In this document: in pieces, positions 11,453-18,508 of the stretch
How positions within the stretch are numbered: the first letter of the stretch is position 1
Layout: the number at the start of each line of letters is the position of its first letter
Assembly: GCF_020866905.1 (NCBI RefSeq)
Contig: NZ_JAIVCC010000013.1
Location: 1-64,000, forward strand
Reading direction: 5' to 3'
Source: Salinimicrobium sediminilitoris
GTDB lineage: Bacteria > Bacteroidota > Bacteroidia > Flavobacteriales > Flavobacteriaceae
DNA: 64,000 nt
Program-made: the position numbers and the translations under genes
The notes under the pieces: model-generated
The model's database searches: none
What the model saw: only the letters and a program-made list of their open reading frames with translations
What the model was told of the DNA's origin: nothing

Positions 11453-12313
11453 CTATCTCCTTGTTCTTTTGATAAATTCCTCCTGCAGGAGTCGTGTAAT
11501 TTCCCCTTTTTGAGAAGTAAATACTTCTTTACCTTCTATGGTCACAGAAGATACAGGAGCGATCTGAGTAGTGGTGCCGGTGAGAAAGATCTCATCTACT
11601 TCTGAAAGTTTGGCGACAGGGAAAGCTTCCTCCTTTAAAGGAATTTCCAGACTATTACAAAGTTCTATCACCACCTTTCTCGTAATGCCGGAGAGGATCT
11701 GCCGGTCTTCGGGATGGGTATATACAACATCATCTTTAACGAAGAAGATCGTGGTATGGGAGCCTTCAGTGAAAACGCCGTTGCGGAATAAAAGGTTTTC
11801 ATCATATCCGGCGGAAATGGCGGCATCATTCGCCATGGTATTTGCAAGTAATGCTGTCGATTTGATATCGCACCTGTGCCAGCGAAGATCTTCGGAAGCC
11901 ATTACTTTCCAGAACCTATTTTTAAAATTAGACAAATCCACCCGGAAAGCATAAAGCAATAAAGTTGGCTCTGCATCTTCGGGAATGAAGTGAGAACGAG
12001 GTGCCTTTCCGCGGGAGATCTGCAGGTAAACTGCAGCATCTTCCGAAGAAAAAGAGGAACGTTTTACCGCCTCCAGCATCAGCCCCTCCAGGATCGAAGC
12101 ATTAAAATCAATACTCATTTCCTGCAGACAATACCTTACCCTTGCCAAATGATCCTGCAGCCGAAAAGGTTTTCCGCTGTAAAAAGGGGTCACCTCATAG
12201 ATCCCATCCCCGAACATGAAAGAACGGTCAAAAACCGAAACAAAAGCGTCTTCAGGTTTTTTCCATTTATCATTCAGGAAAACTTCGGCAGGATAGGTTT
12301 TTTTGTTTTTCAT
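11453..12313 (-). CDS. Class IV aminotransferase, D-amino-acid aminotransferase-like
   Basis: A 286-residue PLP enzyme of fold type IV. The first block FLNDKWKKPEDAFVSVFDRSFMFGDGIYEVTPFYSGKPFRL is the family opening; the PLP lysine lies in CDIKSTALLANTMAND near residue 150, and the conserved glutamate in LFRNGVFTEGSHTTIFFVKD near residue 180. The family includes D-alanine, branched-chain and aminodeoxychorismate enzymes; the YEV..F pattern and the short length favour a D-amino-acid transaminase, but the substrate cannot be fixed from sequence. It lies 46 bp downstream of the glyoxylate aminotransferase gene and may be cotranscribed. Confidence 0.82.
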   Translation of the reverse strand: MKNKKTYPAEVFLNDKWKKPEDAFVSVFDRSFMFGDGIYEVTPFYSGKPFRLQDHLARVRYCLQEMSIDFNASILEGLMLEAVKRSSFSSEDAAVYLQISRGKAPRSHFIPEDAEPTLLLYAFRVDLSNFKNRFWKVMASEDLRWHRCDIKSTALLANTMANDAAISAGYDENLLFRNGVFTEGSHTTIFFVKDDVVYTHPEDRQILSGITRKVVIELCNSLEIPLKEEAFPVAKLSEVDEIFLTGTTTQIAPVSSVTIEGKEVFTSQKGEITRLLQEEFIKRTRR

Positions 12314-12359: not shown

Positions 12360-13532
12360 TTATTTAGATCCTAAAAGCACATTTTGAAAAGCCTGCAAGC
12401 TTTTCCCTGAATTTATATCGTGACCCAGTTCTGATAAGGCACGTTCCAAGGCACCCAGAACCGCAATGAGATCATTGGCAGATACCGAGCCCATATGGCC
12501 GATCCGAAAGTACTTAGATTTAATATCTGATAGTAGTCCACCGGCGAGAATCACATCACTTTTGGCTATTTTTGAAAGTAGCGCCGCACCATCTATTCCA
12601 CCTGGATAATAAGCAGCAGTAAGTGTATTAGCTGCTATTTCATTTCTTTCAGGTATTATCTGAAGGTTCAAGGAGGAGATTCCCGCCCGAAAAGCTTTTG
12701 CCAAAATTTGATGCCTTTTTACTCTTTCCTCTACGCCTTCTGCAGCTATGATCTTAAGGCTTGTTTCTAAGGCAACAATTAAATTAACTGCAGGTGTTCC
12801 GAAATACGAAGGTCTTCTTTCTTCATAAGCTTTCATTATTGGCAACCAGTTGTTCCAATCGGCATAATAGTTAGATACAGGCGTTTTTCTTTTTCCCCAG
12901 GCTTCCATAGCTTTCTGCGATGCTACTAGAAGGGCGAGTCCGGGAGGTACACCAATGGCTTTTTGAGATCCTGTTAAAACAACATCGAGCCCCCATTCAT
13001 CCTGATCTATCTCTTCACCCGCAACCGAGCATACACCATCTAAAATACTAAGGGTGTTATATTTTTTGGCTAATTTCGCTATAGGTTTTGGATCTACCAA
13101 TACTCCGGTAGAGGTATCAACATGAGTAATGGTCAAAGCTTTATAATTGTTGGTTTGAAGCTCTTTTTCAACTGCTTCCAAACTCACTACTTCACCTGTG
13201 GGAGCTTCCAGGATGGTAGTGTCAGCACCATAGCGATCCAGTATGTCTTTGAACCTTTGGCCGAAGTATCCTGTGGAGATCACCAATACACGATCCCCTT
13301 GTTCCACTAGATTGGCGGCTGCCATATCCATAGCCAAAGTGCCGGTTCCGGCGACGATAAAAGGTTGGCCTTTTGGAGACTTCCATACTTCTCGCATAAG
13401 CTCAAGGCTGTTCCCAAAAGTCTCTATAAAATCTGGTGCAACATGACTTTGAGTCGGCATTCCCATGGCCTGTAAAACTTCCGGTTCAAATTCTATAGGA
13501 CCGGGAATCATAAGTAGCTTTCTGCCTTTCAT
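12360..13532 (-). CDS. Alanine/serine-glyoxylate aminotransferase family protein
   Basis: A 390-residue class V PLP aminotransferase. Landmarks are MIPGPIEFEPEVLQAM at the start, VAGTGTLAMDMAAANLVEQGDRVLV near residue 60, HVDTSTGVLVDP near residue 137, and the PLP lysine in VVLTGSQKAIGVPPGLALL near residue 190. Enzymes of this group make glycine from glyoxylate using alanine or serine as amino donor. The gene directly follows isocitrate lyase, which makes glyoxylate, so removal of glyoxylate to glycine is the likely job; donor amino acid is not visible. A partly decisive test would be comparison with AGT and SGAT subfamilies. Confidence 0.87.
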   Translation of the reverse strand: MKGRKLLMIPGPIEFEPEVLQAMGMPTQSHVAPDFIETFGNSLELMREVWKSPKGQPFIVAGTGTLAMDMAAANLVEQGDRVLVISTGYFGQRFKDILDRYGADTTILEAPTGEVVSLEAVEKELQTNNYKALTITHVDTSTGVLVDPKPIAKLAKKYNTLSILDGVCSVAGEEIDQDEWGLDVVLTGSQKAIGVPPGLALLVASQKAMEAWGKRKTPVSNYYADWNNWLPIMKAYEERRPSYFGTPAVNLIVALETSLKIIAAEGVEERVKRHQILAKAFRAGISSLNLQIIPERNEIAANTLTAAYYPGGIDGAALLSKIAKSDVILAGGLLSDIKSKYFRIGHMGSVSANDLIAVLGALERALSELGHDINSGKSLQAFQNVLLGSK

Positions 13533-13611: not shown

Positions 13612-15237
13612 TTATTTATCGAGAACAGGCTCCCGTTCAGTAACAGTTTCATGTTCTTTAAACTGATTACTTGTATTTTTTTCGCCTCCCGCTTTTAAAG
13701 CTTTTTCTCCGGCAAAGAAGCTCTTGTGATCATCTCCAAGATCGGAACCTGCCATACGCTGATGTTTGACACAGGAAACGCCCTTTCGGATTTCCTGTCT
13801 TTGAACCCCTTTTACATATGCTAACATTCCCTCTTCAGAAAAATAACCTGCTGTTAGGTCATTCATGTGAAGGGCAGTTGTGTGATAGGTTGGCAACGTG
13901 ATCAAGTGATGGAAAACCCCTGCTTCTCTTGCAGCATCGATTTGGAATGTTTTAATCTTCCTATCTGCTCTAAAGCATAATTCGGTATCATCATATTCCG
14001 AACACATTAAATTATTTCTGTCATAACCGGTCATATTTTCCCCTTCTGCAAGCATATCATCATAAGCCTGGTGACGGAAGTTTAAGGTCCAGTTAAAAGA
14101 TGGTGAGTTATTGTAAACCAGCTTGGCATTGGGTACAACTTTTTTTACCCTGTTCACCATGTGGGCAATCTGTTTAACATTAGGGGTCGGAGTCTCGATC
14201 CATAGAAGATCTGCTCCATTTTTAAGACTTGTGATACAATCTAATACAACCCTGTCTATGTTTGAACCATCTTTAAATTTATATAAACCATTAGCCAATC
14301 GTACGGGACGCATTAATTTCCCGTCTCTTTTAAGAAGAACATCGTCTTCTTTGGCATCGTTGATTTCAATTTCTTCAGCTTCTATAAAAGCTAAATACTG
14401 AGATGCCAGATCCCCCGGCTCCTGACTTACCGGAAGCTTTTGAGTTAAACCGGCACCTTCGGAATCTGTTCTCGCTACTATAATCCCGTCTTCCACACCT
14501 AATTCTATAAATGCATATCTGATAGCATTTAATTTGGCAATAAAATCTTCATGAGGTACAGTAACCTTTCCATCCTGATGTCCACATTGTTTGGCATCAG
14601 AAACCTGATTTTCGATCTGAATGGCACAAGCTCCGGCCTGGATCATTTTTTTAGCTAATAAATAGGTCGCTTCTTCATTCCCGAAACCGGCGTCAATATC
14701 GGCAATAATAGGAACTACGTGTGTTTCAAAATTATCAATTTGATCCTGCACATCTTCTCCTTTCTCGAGTCTTTTGAAGAGATCGTTTAACTCAATAGCA
14801 TCTGCCTGGCGTAAGAAATCATAAATTTCATTTATTAATGAAGGAACAGCAGTTTTTTCGTGCATGGATTGATCTGGCAGCGGTCCAAATTCTGAACGTA
14901 ACGCAGCAACCATCCACCCGGAAAGATAAAGGTATTTTTTACTGGTAGTTTTGTGATGCTTTTTGACAGCTATCATATTTTGCTGCGCCACAAAACCATG
15001 CCAGCTACCCAAGGACTGGGTGTATTGGGATGGATCTGCGTCATACTCTGCCATATCTTTTCTCATAATGGCCGCTGTATATCTCGCAATATCCAAACCT
15101 GTTCTAAACCTGTTTTGGGTAACCATCCTGGCAGCGCTTTCAGGATTTATTGAATTCCATGTTTCTCCATATTTTTCTTTAAGATTTTTTACAGCCTCTA
15201 ATGCAGAGCTATAATTTGTTTGTGGTTGATTTTTCAT
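13612..15237 (-). CDS. aceA: Isocitrate lyase
   Basis: A 541-residue enzyme that splits isocitrate into glyoxylate and succinate, the first step of the glyoxylate shunt. The active-site cysteine loop is SDAKQCGHQDGKVTVPHEDF near residues 210-230; the KQCGHQDGK form and the length mark the Pseudomonas aeruginosa-type lyases rather than the shorter E. coli type (KKCGH). Metal and substrate regions IIADIDAGFGNEEAT near residue 178 and VYNNSPSFNW near residue 365 are intact. It lies 75 bp after malate synthase on the same strand and is probably in one operon with it. Confidence 0.96.
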   Translation of the reverse strand: MKNQPQTNYSSALEAVKNLKEKYGETWNSINPESAARMVTQNRFRTGLDIARYTAAIMRKDMAEYDADPSQYTQSLGSWHGFVAQQNMIAVKKHHKTTSKKYLYLSGWMVAALRSEFGPLPDQSMHEKTAVPSLINEIYDFLRQADAIELNDLFKRLEKGEDVQDQIDNFETHVVPIIADIDAGFGNEEATYLLAKKMIQAGACAIQIENQVSDAKQCGHQDGKVTVPHEDFIAKLNAIRYAFIELGVEDGIIVARTDSEGAGLTQKLPVSQEPGDLASQYLAFIEAEEIEINDAKEDDVLLKRDGKLMRPVRLANGLYKFKDGSNIDRVVLDCITSLKNGADLLWIETPTPNVKQIAHMVNRVKKVVPNAKLVYNNSPSFNWTLNFRHQAYDDMLAEGENMTGYDRNNLMCSEYDDTELCFRADRKIKTFQIDAAREAGVFHHLITLPTYHTTALHMNDLTAGYFSEEGMLAYVKGVQRQEIRKGVSCVKHQRMAGSDLGDDHKSFFAGEKALKAGGEKNTSNQFKEHETVTEREPVLDK

Positions 15238-15312: not shown

Positions 15313-16911
15313 TTAGATGTATTGATATGCGGGGAGGGTTAAGAACTCTTCAAACTTTTCTGCAAGAACCAGTTTGTCAAAGAGCTCTATAGCGAGCTTA
15401 TAGCGGTTGTTCTCATTAGAGTTTCCTCGGTATTCTTTTAAGATTTTTTCTACCTCATCATTCAAAAGGTCGATGTATAATTCCGTATTGAATTTGCGTC
15501 CGTCTTCCAGTACGACTTCGTGCTTTAACCATTGCCATACCTGTGTTCTTGAAATTTCGGCAGTAGCTGCATCTTCCATTAAATTATACAGCGCTACAGC
15601 ACCATGACCTCTCAACCAGGCTTCTGTATATAAAATCCCGACATTGATATTTTTTCTTATCCCGGCTTCCGTAACAGTACCTTTCGGTATTTCCACAAGG
15701 TCTTCTTCGGAAATATTCATGTCTTCACGAGTGACGTGTAATTGATTTGGCATTGGCATGTGTTTGTTAAACTCTGTCAGTGCTACTTCCACTAATGCCG
15801 GATGCGCCACCCATGTACCGTCATGGCCATTTTTAACTTCCCGCTCTTTATCTTTTCTTACTTTTTCTATAGCAGCTGCGTTGGCCTTTTCATCATTTTT
15901 AATAGGAATTTGAGCAGCCATTCCGCCAATAGCATGGATGCCACGTTTATGGCAGCGTTGAATAACTAGCTTGGAATACGCCTCCATGAAAGGAGTGGTC
16001 ATTGTAACCTGGTCACGGTTTGGCACCACAAAATTCGGGTGGTTCCTGAATTTCTTGATGTACGAAAAAATATAATCCCAGCGACCGCAATTGAGCCCTA
16101 CGATATGATCTTTAAGTTCATATATGATCTCGTCTAACTGAAAACTTGCAGTAATGGTCTCAATAAGAACGGTTGCTTTAAAAGTGCCTTTAGGCACTTC
16201 CAGGAATTCCTGGGCAAAAGTGAACACTTCATTCCACCAGCGTGCTTCAGTATAGTGCTCCAACTTTGGAAGATAGAAGTAGGGGGCAGTATTATTCTTC
16301 AACAAGGTTTGCCTGTTGTGGAAAACATACAAACCGAAATCCACAAGACTACCTGAAGTTTCTTCCCCATTGATCAGAATATGTCTTTCATTTAAATGTA
16401 GCCCTCTGGGCCTGACCATTAAAACTGCTGTCTCATTATTTAGGCTGTAAGATTTACCACGATCTGAGTCTACCAGTGAAATTGTTTTATTATTGGCATC
16501 TATAAGATTTTGTTGGCCTTCAATAACATTTTGCCAAGTGGGTGCAGTACTGTCCTCCAGGTCTGCCATAAATGTCCTGGCTCCGGAATTAAGTGCGTTG
16601 ATCACCATCTTTCTGTCTACAGGGCCTGTAATTTCTACCCGTCTGTCCTGTAAATCTTCAGGGGTTTTGCCCGCACTCCAATCACCTTCCCTAATGGATT
16701 TTGTCTCTGGCGGGAATTCAGGCAACTTTCCTTCATCAAAAACCTTTTGCTGGTTTATTCTTTTTTCTAAGAGAGAAAGTCTTTCTCCATTAAATCTTTC
16801 ATGAAGTGCCGCTATAAAATTTAGGGCATTATCTGTCAGGATTTCTGGATAATAATTCTTTACCTCTTCTGAGAATTTTAAAATAGATGTTTTTAAGGTT
16901 TTGGCTTCCAT
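15313..16911 (-). CDS. aceB: Malate synthase A
   Basis: A 532-residue A-type malate synthase that condenses glyoxylate with acetyl-CoA to malate. Key regions are RRVEITGPVDRKMVINALNSGA near residue 87, the catalytic arginine in MVRPRGLHLNERH near residue 165, the magnesium and substrate block IETITASFQLDEIIYEL near residue 250 and the following GLNCGRWDYIFSYIKKF. The C-terminal catalytic aspartate region NLMEDAATAEISR is intact. It is the first gene of the aceB-aceA cluster; its upstream region holds a palindrome and three repeats shared with the divergent regulator gene. Confidence 0.96.
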   Translation of the reverse strand: MEAKTLKTSILKFSEEVKNYYPEILTDNALNFIAALHERFNGERLSLLEKRINQQKVFDEGKLPEFPPETKSIREGDWSAGKTPEDLQDRRVEITGPVDRKMVINALNSGARTFMADLEDSTAPTWQNVIEGQQNLIDANNKTISLVDSDRGKSYSLNNETAVLMVRPRGLHLNERHILINGEETSGSLVDFGLYVFHNRQTLLKNNTAPYFYLPKLEHYTEARWWNEVFTFAQEFLEVPKGTFKATVLIETITASFQLDEIIYELKDHIVGLNCGRWDYIFSYIKKFRNHPNFVVPNRDQVTMTTPFMEAYSKLVIQRCHKRGIHAIGGMAAQIPIKNDEKANAAAIEKVRKDKEREVKNGHDGTWVAHPALVEVALTEFNKHMPMPNQLHVTREDMNISEEDLVEIPKGTVTEAGIRKNINVGILYTEAWLRGHGAVALYNLMEDAATAEISRTQVWQWLKHEVVLEDGRKFNTELYIDLLNDEVEKILKEYRGNSNENNRYKLAIELFDKLVLAEKFEEFLTLPAYQYI

Positions 16912-16931: not shown

Positions 16932-17011
16932 CAATATTACAGGAAAGTTTTTTAAAAAACAAGCGAACGTTCGCTAAAACTAAATATTCGCAAATTACTA
17001 AGATTCGCAAA
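16932..17011. promoter_or_regulatory. Operator array and aceB promoter between aceB and its regulator
   Basis: Three TTCGC(A/T)AA units read on the + strand at 16970, 16987 and 17004, exactly 17 bp apart. The first is one arm of a perfect 14-bp palindrome, AGCGAACGTTCGCT (16962-16975). For aceB on the - strand, TAATATTG (about 16932-16939) is one mismatch from the -7 element and CTTG about 20 bp upstream could be the -33 element, so the palindrome would overlap the upstream promoter end. RamB, a related regulator in Corynebacterium, binds a TTTGCAAA-like motif, which is similar to TTCGCAAA. Confidence 0.65.
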
Positions 17012-17017
17012 AATGCC

Positions 17018-17025
17018 TATATTTG
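17018..17025 (+). promoter_or_regulatory. Bacteroidota -7 promoter element of the regulator gene
   Basis: TATATTTG matches TAnnTTTG exactly. It ends 4 bp before the regulator's ATG at 17030, so transcription would start at or next to the start codon. The third TTCGCAAA operator unit (17004-17011) lies just upstream, which would suit autoregulation. Confidence 0.5.
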
Positions 17026-17029
17026 AAAT

Positions 17030-18508
17030 ATGGAAGAAGATTACATCAAATTAATATTTGGCCTGAAGCTAAAGCAGATAAGGACTGAGAAGAATTTGTC
17101 TTTATTCGGGTTGTCGAAACTTTCCGGTTTATCAAAGTCTTATTTAAATGAAATTGAAAACGGAAAAAAATACCCTAAACCAGATAAAATAGCTTTGCTT
17201 TCAGATAAACTGGAAGTTCCCTATGATCAAATGGTCTCTTTAAGGCTGGATAAAAATTTAGCTCCAATTGGGGAACTATTACAGTCTAAAATTCTAAAAG
17301 AGATCCCATTGGATCTCTTTGGCATTAAGGAAAGTAATCTAATAGATATAGTCGCCAATGCACCTACAAAAGTAACTGCATTTATAAGTACTATTATTGA
17401 AATTGCACACCATTACAGCTTTAGCAAGGAAAGCTTCTTTCTGGCTGCTGTACGTTCTTTTCAGGAAGCGAATAATAATTACTTTGATGAGTTAGAACAA
17501 CAGGTTTTAAAGTTCTCAAAAGCTTATCAGGTAGAACTAACAAGGTCTCTTACATCCAAAGATCTGGAGGAGATCCTTACTGAAGAATACGGTTATACCA
17601 TTAACGATAGCGAATTAAGTAAAAATGAGGCCCTAGGAAACCTGCGGTCAGTACTTGTACCTCAAACCAATACGCTGTTGCTCGCTAACGGGATCGATGA
17701 ATCCCAACGCACCTTTATTTTCGCTAAAGAAATCGCATATAATTATCTGGAAATAAAAGACAGGCTTCATACTTTTCCCTGGATCAAATTCCAGAGGTTT
17801 GATCAGGTGCTCAATAATTTCTATGCCTCATATTTTGCCGGTGCACTTGTCATTCCTAAAGATGATTTGACTTCACAACTAGAAACTATTTTTGAAAAAG
17901 AGACCTTTGATGAAGCTCTTTTTCTTCAAATGCTGGAAGGCTTCAACGCTTCCCCGGAAACATTTTACCAGCGATTGACCAATATCCTGCCCAAAGCGTT
18001 TAATATTAAAAATTTATTCTTTTTAAGGTTTACTCATAAGGCAGGCACAGAACAATTTTACCTGAACAAGGAACTTCATTTATCACATCAGCATTCCCCG
18101 CGGGCCAATGAAACCAATGAGCATTATTGCAGGCGATGGGTTTCTTTGAGAGGTTTAAAAGAAATAAGTAAAAGTAAGAAACCTCATGAGTTTGGACTTC
18201 AAATTTCTCATTATCCCAGTCATGGGACAACTTATTTAGTGATCTCGTCGGCAACTAAAGATCCTTTCCGAAACAACCAGTATAGAAGTATAAGTATTGG
18301 TTTATTGATGAATAAGCAACTGGAGCGGAAGCTTAAGTTTTTGGAAGATCCAACTATTACCCGGCGCGAGGTTGGAGTTACCTGTGAACGCTGTGGTATT
18401 ATTGATTGTGAGGTAAGACAGGCTCCCTCAGTTATTCTGGATAAAGAAGCTAAGAATAAGAAGATAGAAAGGATCGTAGATGAATTAAATGCCAGATTTC
18501 AGGCCTAA
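17030..18508 (+). CDS. RamB-like transcriptional regulator (XRE HTH, IrrE-like and DUF2083 domains)
   Basis: A 492-residue protein. Residues 9-65 are an XRE helix-turn-helix (LSLFGLSKLSGLSKSYLNEIENGKKYP). A middle region around residues 200-290 resembles the ImmA/IrrE-like domain, although the usual HExxH is not obvious (here RTFIFAKEIAYNYLEI). The C-terminal third matches short-chain fatty-acyl regulator proteins and carries cysteines in VTCERCGIIDCEVRQAPS near residue 455. RamB-type regulators of this architecture control acetate and glyoxylate-shunt genes in Actinobacteria. Divergent placement from aceB with a shared repeat array supports control of aceBA; activator or repressor is unknown. 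Confidence 0.8.
   Translation: MEEDYIKLIFGLKLKQIRTEKNLSLFGLSKLSGLSKSYLNEIENGKKYPKPDKIALLSDKLEVPYDQMVSLRLDKNLAPIGELLQSKILKEIPLDLFGIKESNLIDIVANAPTKVTAFISTIIEIAHHYSFSKESFFLAAVRSFQEANNNYFDELEQQVLKFSKAYQVELTRSLTSKDLEEILTEEYGYTINDSELSKNEALGNLRSVLVPQTNTLLLANGIDESQRTFIFAKEIAYNYLEIKDRLHTFPWIKFQRFDQVLNNFYASYFAGALVIPKDDLTSQLETIFEKETFDEALFLQMLEGFNASPETFYQRLTNILPKAFNIKNLFFLRFTHKAGTEQFYLNKELHLSHQHSPRANETNEHYCRRWVSLRGLKEISKSKKPHEFGLQISHYPSHGTTYLVISSATKDPFRNNQYRSISIGLLMNKQLERKLKFLEDPTITRREVGVTCERCGIIDCEVRQAPSVILDKEAKNKKIERIVDELNARFQA

Follow-up and report, generated by a model that had tools for sequence, protein, structure and literature searches.

What controls the glyoxylate shunt in the Bacteroidota, and from which DNA site? 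The locus examined here raises this question in a compact form, with a malate synthase gene, aceB, and a divergently transcribed regulator gene of the XRE type separated by a gap of only 118 bp. It lies in a window (the whole stretch of DNA that was analysed) of 64,000 nucleotides from Salinimicrobium sediminilitoris. The gap contains a palindrome, AGCGAACGTTCGCT, and further half-sites at +17 and +34. The features discussed below are the following; counts over 79 loci refer to close, named relatives.

13612..15237, minus strand: aceA, isocitrate lyase of the NF005074 type (988 bits, cut-off 446), the gene next after aceB
15313..16911, minus strand: aceB, malate synthase A (793 bits, cut-off 594.5)
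16932..16939, minus strand: predicted aceB -7 box TAATATTG, of the form CAAnnnTA, at a constant distance to the palindrome in 76/79 loci
16960..16962, minus strand: predicted aceB -33 TTG, which shares one base with the edge of the palindrome; CAA abuts the palindrome in 66/79 loci
16962..16975, no strand: candidate core operator, the perfect 14-bp palindrome AGCGAACGTTCGCT, made of two inverted half-sites; exact in 20/20 aligned family gaps, window included
16970..16977, plus strand: half-site 1, TTCGCTAA, the right arm of the palindrome as read in the sequence
16987..16994, plus strand: half-site 2, TTCGCAAA, at +17; a unit at +17/18 in 44/79 loci
17004..17011, plus strand: half-site 3, TTCGCAAA, at +34; a unit at +34 to +36 in 76/79 loci
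17018..17025, plus strand: predicted regulator -7 box TATATTTG, 4 bp ahead of the regulator ATG
17030..18508, plus strand: ScfR/RamB/PrpR-like regulator of 492 aa, with an XRE helix-turn-helix, PrpR-like domains and C-X2-C-X4-C, from domain, fold and cysteine evidence

The aceB-regulator gap and its predicted promoters

A preliminary description of this DNA had proposed three repeat units at 16970, 16987 and 17004, all on the plus strand and spaced by 17 bp, the first of them being half of a perfect 14-bp palindrome at 16962-16975. The sequence bears out both statements. The pattern TTCGCWAA-N9-TTCGCWAA has two overlapping matches in the 3.59-Mb genome, both of them in the gap, and none in the reversed control. 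The palindrome, allowing up to one mismatch, has a single site in this genome, again in the gap, and therefore no second target can be named there. When the 118-bp gap was shuffled 2000 times with its dinucleotides preserved, a triplet of words (8 bases, at most one mismatch, any equal spacing of 10-30) arose in 3 shuffles, a perfect 14-bp palindrome in 79, and both together in none. By that measure the palindrome on its own is unremarkable in DNA so rich in A+T; its significance lies in its being conserved and tied to the regulator gene. A second perfect 14-bp palindrome, GTTTTTTAAAAAAC, is found at 16947-16960, between the predicted aceB -33 and -7 boxes, and is not conserved letter for letter in the aligned gaps of relatives.

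The -7 and -33 boxes were assigned by the Bacteroidota promoter consensus. For aceB, the predicted -33 TTG and -7 box are separated by a spacer of 20 bp, and in 76 of the 79 loci the CAAnnnTA box, read on the minus strand, lies 38 bp ahead of the forward half-site. The centre of the palindrome (16968.5) is thereby predicted to fall near -40 of aceB. A site near -40 is in the classical position of an activator. On the other side, a TAnnTTTG box for the regulator was found in 75/79 loci; in 71 of them its first base lies 14 bp beyond the start of half-site 3. Half-site 3 is accordingly placed, by prediction from the sequence, between the -33 and -7 elements of the regulator's own promoter, whose message would start at or beside the ATG.

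Downstream of the isocitrate lyase gene, a class V aminotransferase is encoded at 12360-13532 on the minus strand (best NCBIfam match: aspartate-glyoxylate aminotransferase BhcA, 233.5 bits, cut-off 650), followed at 11453-12313 on the same strand by a second open reading frame judged by eye to be aminotransferase-like. The two are possibly a glyoxylate-using extension of the aceBA operon.

Conservation in the family and across the phylum

Among 149 Flavobacteriaceae genomes, which are kin, so that counts are not independent events, the exact palindrome occurs in 21, identical to the 21 that encode malate synthase A; a search for the exact palindrome found it in 0/128 family genomes without this enzyme. 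The regulator is present in 23/149 at E <1e-100, including all 21 palindrome genomes; this search gave 32 matches, of which the 9 beyond the 23 are HTH-only. The palindrome is the same to the letter in 20/20 aligned family gaps (window included), even though regulator identity drops to 57%. Counted by eye in these gaps, the +34 to 36 unit is found in 19 and the +17/18 unit in 9. The 20 aligned gaps omit the window duplicates L001 and L002, the HTH-only matches L026-L032, and L011, L023 and L025, whose loci hold no usable divergent aceB. A loss of the repeats or their spacing in relatives that keep the divergent gene pair would have spoken against the proposal; in such relatives units, palindrome and spacing are in fact conserved.

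The two regulator-bearing family genomes without aceB are G038 and G013. In G038 aceBA is absent and the palindrome ahead of the regulator is reduced to CGAACGTTCG. In G013 (L197 2001-3053) an isocitrate lyase from about residue 444 abuts a regulator from about residue 220, a remnant that looks as if a single deletion had taken aceB and both gene starts. A congener, G007, with an estimated completeness of 100%, lacks the regulator, malate synthase, isocitrate lyase and the exact palindrome. Because all parts are missing from this congener, the aceBA-regulator cassette seems to be gained or lost as a block.

From at least 576 relatives, the 80 closest named loci were read; the nearest has a regulator 98% identical to that of the window. 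A divergent malate synthase is present in 78/80, and the core in 79/80 (L251 is without it). The 79 loci used for the spacing test were selected for holding GCGAACGTTCGC, and the invariance of these 12 columns is thus by construction. Past the palindrome, however, they contain 122 half-sites (at least 7/8 letters) versus 3.2 expected from mononucleotide shuffling. The offsets are +17 (31), +18 (13), +34 (30), +35 (11), +36 (35), +51 (1) and +52 (1), with no half-site of at least 7/8 at any other offset past the palindrome in these loci. That is, the outer unit is conserved in 76/79 and the middle one in 44/79. Four forward units, the last at +51, are found in one relative, L254.

In wider samples, the regulator turned up in 63/296 genomes of the order and 70/395 of the phylum, two samples that overlap; about 110 places were matched in them, and 90 loci were read, window included. 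The core GCGAA-NN-TTCGC (GCGAANNTTCGC) stands within 450 bp upstream of the regulator in 73/90 loci and the variant AGCGAACGTACGCT in 6 more, with neither in the 450 bp upstream in 11/90. GCGAANNTTCGC occurs 75 times in the 40.5 kb upstream of the 90 regulator genes versus 2 times in 292 kb elsewhere in the loci. Half-sites are more variable. Of 38 distant loci, 12 have a forward half-site of at least 7/8 at +17/18 and 4 have one at +34/35; 11 more such half-sites are scattered at other offsets, up to +73. Family f5 has a second, imperfect palindrome at +35/36 in 7/11 loci. In genera g127 (17 loci) and g131 (2), the palindrome or its variant is followed by no forward half-site of at least 7/8, and the array is therefore dispensable in some lineages. 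Of the phased array proposed in the preliminary description, then, the invariant palindrome and the units at multiples of 17-18 bp hold for close relatives, whereas farther out the half-sites are often absent. To judge from these sequences, the palindrome seems to be the ancient core; the phased half-sites would be a common extra that can be done without and is most pronounced in Flavobacteriaceae.

The gene on the other side of the palindrome also changes. Divergent partners other than aceB, with the palindrome in between, include AMP-binding enzymes (L118, L126, L138), which are probably acyl-CoA ligases, an aconitase (L124) and a PEP carboxykinase (L133); in these five the metabolic theme is retained. 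At L120, L136, L143 and L145 the scanned neighbours are unrelated or belong to no family, and are not always divergent or nearest. In L220 and L223 (family f62) the same type of palindrome precedes a large glutamine amidotransferase open reading frame. Among the matches listed, AGCGAANNTTCGCT is present in at least 47/50 regulator-bearing genomes versus at least 13/50 in the reversed control, some genomes having several sites. At palindromes picked by hand in distant genomes, 30 neighbouring proteins were scanned. Seven fit an acyl-CoA/acetate theme, namely aconitase (three), acyl-CoA dehydrogenase (two), enoyl-CoA hydratase and 3-hydroxyacyl-CoA dehydrogenase; the others are unrelated or without family (helicases, glutamine amidotransferase, TonB, IlvD, LRR and others). 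As most of the scanned neighbours are of the latter kind, a wider regulon in these genomes is only suggestive.

A specific case of a changed partner is provided by G038 and Xanthomarina spongicola (G781), both of which are without aceB and aceA. Each has a single perfect match to AGCGAANNTTCGCT, namely AGCGAACATTCGCT; it follows immediately on TACATTTG where the pyruvate carboxylase gene, pyc, begins:

L196 3001-3014 and L314 about 1501-1514: pyc-promoter palindromes of the two aceBA-less genomes, perfect matches to AGCGAANNTTCGCT

Only perfect matches were used, because matches with one mismatch were no more numerous than in the reversed control. The pyc sites were identified by eye in stretches of 120 bp; in such stretches the palindrome is absent from the close relatives G780 and G782 (Xanthomarina sp., aceBA kept), and also from G000, G087, G039 and G148. 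The pyc palindromes of G038 and G781 may stem from one shared event.

The regulator protein

The regulator carries an N-terminal helix-turn-helix of the XRE type (HTH_3, E 4.1e-10), and Pfam M78 reaches 21 bits, just below its 22-bit cut-off. The RamB equivalog model NF038139 (NCBIfam) scores 51.7 bits against a cut-off of 700 and so misses its threshold; all 21 aligned members of the regulator group match this model, with a best E of 1.3e-17. Cysteines C367, C452, C455 and C460 are invariant in 21/21 members and arranged as in PrpR, the fourth Cys standing 85 from the C-X2-C-X4-C motif, versus 84 by the published PrpR numbers (PMC6765138). From the sequence, these four are predicted to be the ligands of a [4Fe4S] cluster. 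By eye, no HEXXH motif is present in the regulator translation, and the passages on PrpR used here describe that protein as likewise without it (PMC6765138).

The AlphaFold2 model of the regulator is of middling confidence (mean pLDDT 75, with both Fe-S segments below 50). Its best Foldseek match is M. tuberculosis PrpR (E 4.1e-11). In a fold comparison, the PrpR structures 6cz6, 6cyj and 6cyy were matched at Z 23.6-24.0 over 281-283 residues (rmsd 4.1-4.5 A) at an identity of 17-19%, and the highest-ranking structure of any other protein has Z 13.8. When solved structures were searched by sequence, with the single protein or with a profile, PrpR was not listed; the link to the ScfR/PrpR family thus rests on the fold, the cysteines and the weak RamB model match. 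Judged by model and sequence, the regulator belongs to the ScfR/PrpR-RamB superfamily as a distant member and is not a RamB equivalog. The earlier label of a RamB-like regulator is therefore to be read as remote kinship. With this kinship, the conservation described above, and the co-occurrence of palindrome and malate synthase A without exception in 149 genomes, the computed evidence supports the proposal of an operator array for a glyoxylate-shunt regulator.

Proposed mode of action, alternatives and known systems

Anatomy, conservation, co-occurrence and fold relation, as computed, make it highly likely that the palindrome and half-sites are the operator of the adjacent ScfR-like regulator, as predicted from the sequence. 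For binding, stoichiometry, sign, ligand and start sites, we infer as the best reading an operator of four half-sites; its regulator, probably a tetramer that senses acyl-CoA, would control aceBA and its own gene. Two DNA-binding domains would sit on the palindrome, centred at 16968.5, and two more on the half-sites at +17 and +34, so that one tetramer would span 16960-17011 with one half-site per subunit. When an acyl-CoA signal is present and the iron-sulphur cluster is intact, the regulator on its operator would activate aceBA from a position just upstream of -33 and limit its own synthesis; without the signal, it would repress or be idle. Occupancy by one tetramer and activation are favoured because relatives are tetrameric (PrpR, with four subunits, PMC6765138; P. 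denitrificans RamB, with an Fe-S cluster, PMC10370305), because P. denitrificans needs both operator boxes for activation (PMC10370305), and because the spacing there, 32 bp, comes near the 34-36 bp seen here.

The sign of control is the least certain part of this reading. That aceB is activated rather than repressed seems to us the better supported view, held with modest confidence. The pyc palindrome right behind a -7 box argues that the regulator is also able to repress. It is less likely, though still plausible, that the same regulator at the same operator is mainly a repressor of aceBA released by acyl-CoA, with the array as a silencer over both promoters. The array does cover the zone between the two predicted promoters, and the pyc palindrome of G038 and G781 comes directly after the TACATTTG box. 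A palindrome directly after a -7-type box is in a typical repressor position. C. glutamicum RamB, moreover, represses aceA and aceB (PMC4448153). At aceB, however, the palindrome lies just upstream of the predicted -33 box, touching it, and does not cover -7 or +1, and P. denitrificans RamB, whose gene is arranged in the same way, is an activator on acetate, if also a repressor on succinate (PMC10370305).

It is very improbable that the array belongs to another, global regulator, the neighbouring gene being merely linked: the exact palindrome is missing from all 128 family genomes without malate synthase A, and through the phylum it is the regulator gene that the core accompanies, even where the gene opposite is a different one. 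The readings as an RNA hairpin or terminator, or as a chance product of A+T-rich DNA, have a negligible probability and were set aside, since perfect palindromes did arise in 79 of the 2000 shuffles but never together with the triplet, the palindrome is unchanged in every aligned family gap, the phased half-sites are far above chance, and the palindrome would by inference lie upstream of both predicted starts.

Taking the activating tetramer as our preferred reading, a broader picture can be sketched, which we offer tentatively and would not expect to hold in every part. The regulator would be a phylum-wide acyl-CoA regulator that, in Flavobacteriaceae, uses four half-sites, repeated every 17-18 bp and each taken by one subunit of the tetramer, as a ruler; it would couple activation of the shunt to autorepression and, where the shunt genes are lost, be re-used on the C4-replenishing pyruvate carboxylase. 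The pyc case is then a natural rewiring experiment. The conserved switch between the two genes is very probably the seat of this regulator, from which it would start or stop growth on acetate or fats in many members of the phylum. For the glyoxylate shunt of the Bacteroidota this names a candidate regulator together with its predicted operator, letter by letter, and so addresses a blank in the carbon metabolism of flavobacteria.

That RamB/PrpR proteins control genes of acetate and propionate use is already known. In the open-licence literature we found no characterised glyoxylate-shunt regulator of Bacteroidota, and of the eight open-licence papers in which GCGAACGTTCGC occurs none deals with bacterial gene regulation, to judge by title and opening of the abstract; a literature search for a link to light or proteorhodopsin in Dokdonia yielded nothing for the present reading. 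A Bacteroidota member with such an operator is thus apparently new as far as the open-licence literature goes, although the founding ScfR survey may already list Bacteroidota members.

Among the known systems, PccR of Rhodobacter (ScfR) has the family and the acyl-CoA theme in common with the regulator described here, but controls propionyl-CoA carboxylase genes in the published account used (PMC12632250). C. glutamicum RamB controls aceA and aceB through a TTTGC-type box that is like the present operator; the passages used describe 13-bp motifs and mostly repression, and no phased array (PMC4448153). M. tuberculosis PrpR/RamB has C-X2-C-X4-C and one upstream Cys, as does the regulator here, and a site, TTTGCAAA-n-TTTGCgAA, in which the second word equals TTCGCAAA read on the opposite strand; this is a 17-bp site, for which the passages used describe no phased array (PMC6765138). 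The system nearest in gene order is RamB of P. denitrificans, an ScfR class 2 protein whose gene is divergent from aceB-icl, as is the regulator gene here, and whose preferred ligand comes from the ethylmalonyl-CoA pathway (PMC10370305). Its boxes, in the main text and published oligos, are without TTCGC or GCGAA, unlike the present operator, and number two, where here a palindrome is followed by two half-sites. In the published oligos they are 32 bp apart, start to start, or about three helical turns, compared with 34-36 bp between half-sites 1 and 3 in the operator proposed here (PMC10370305).
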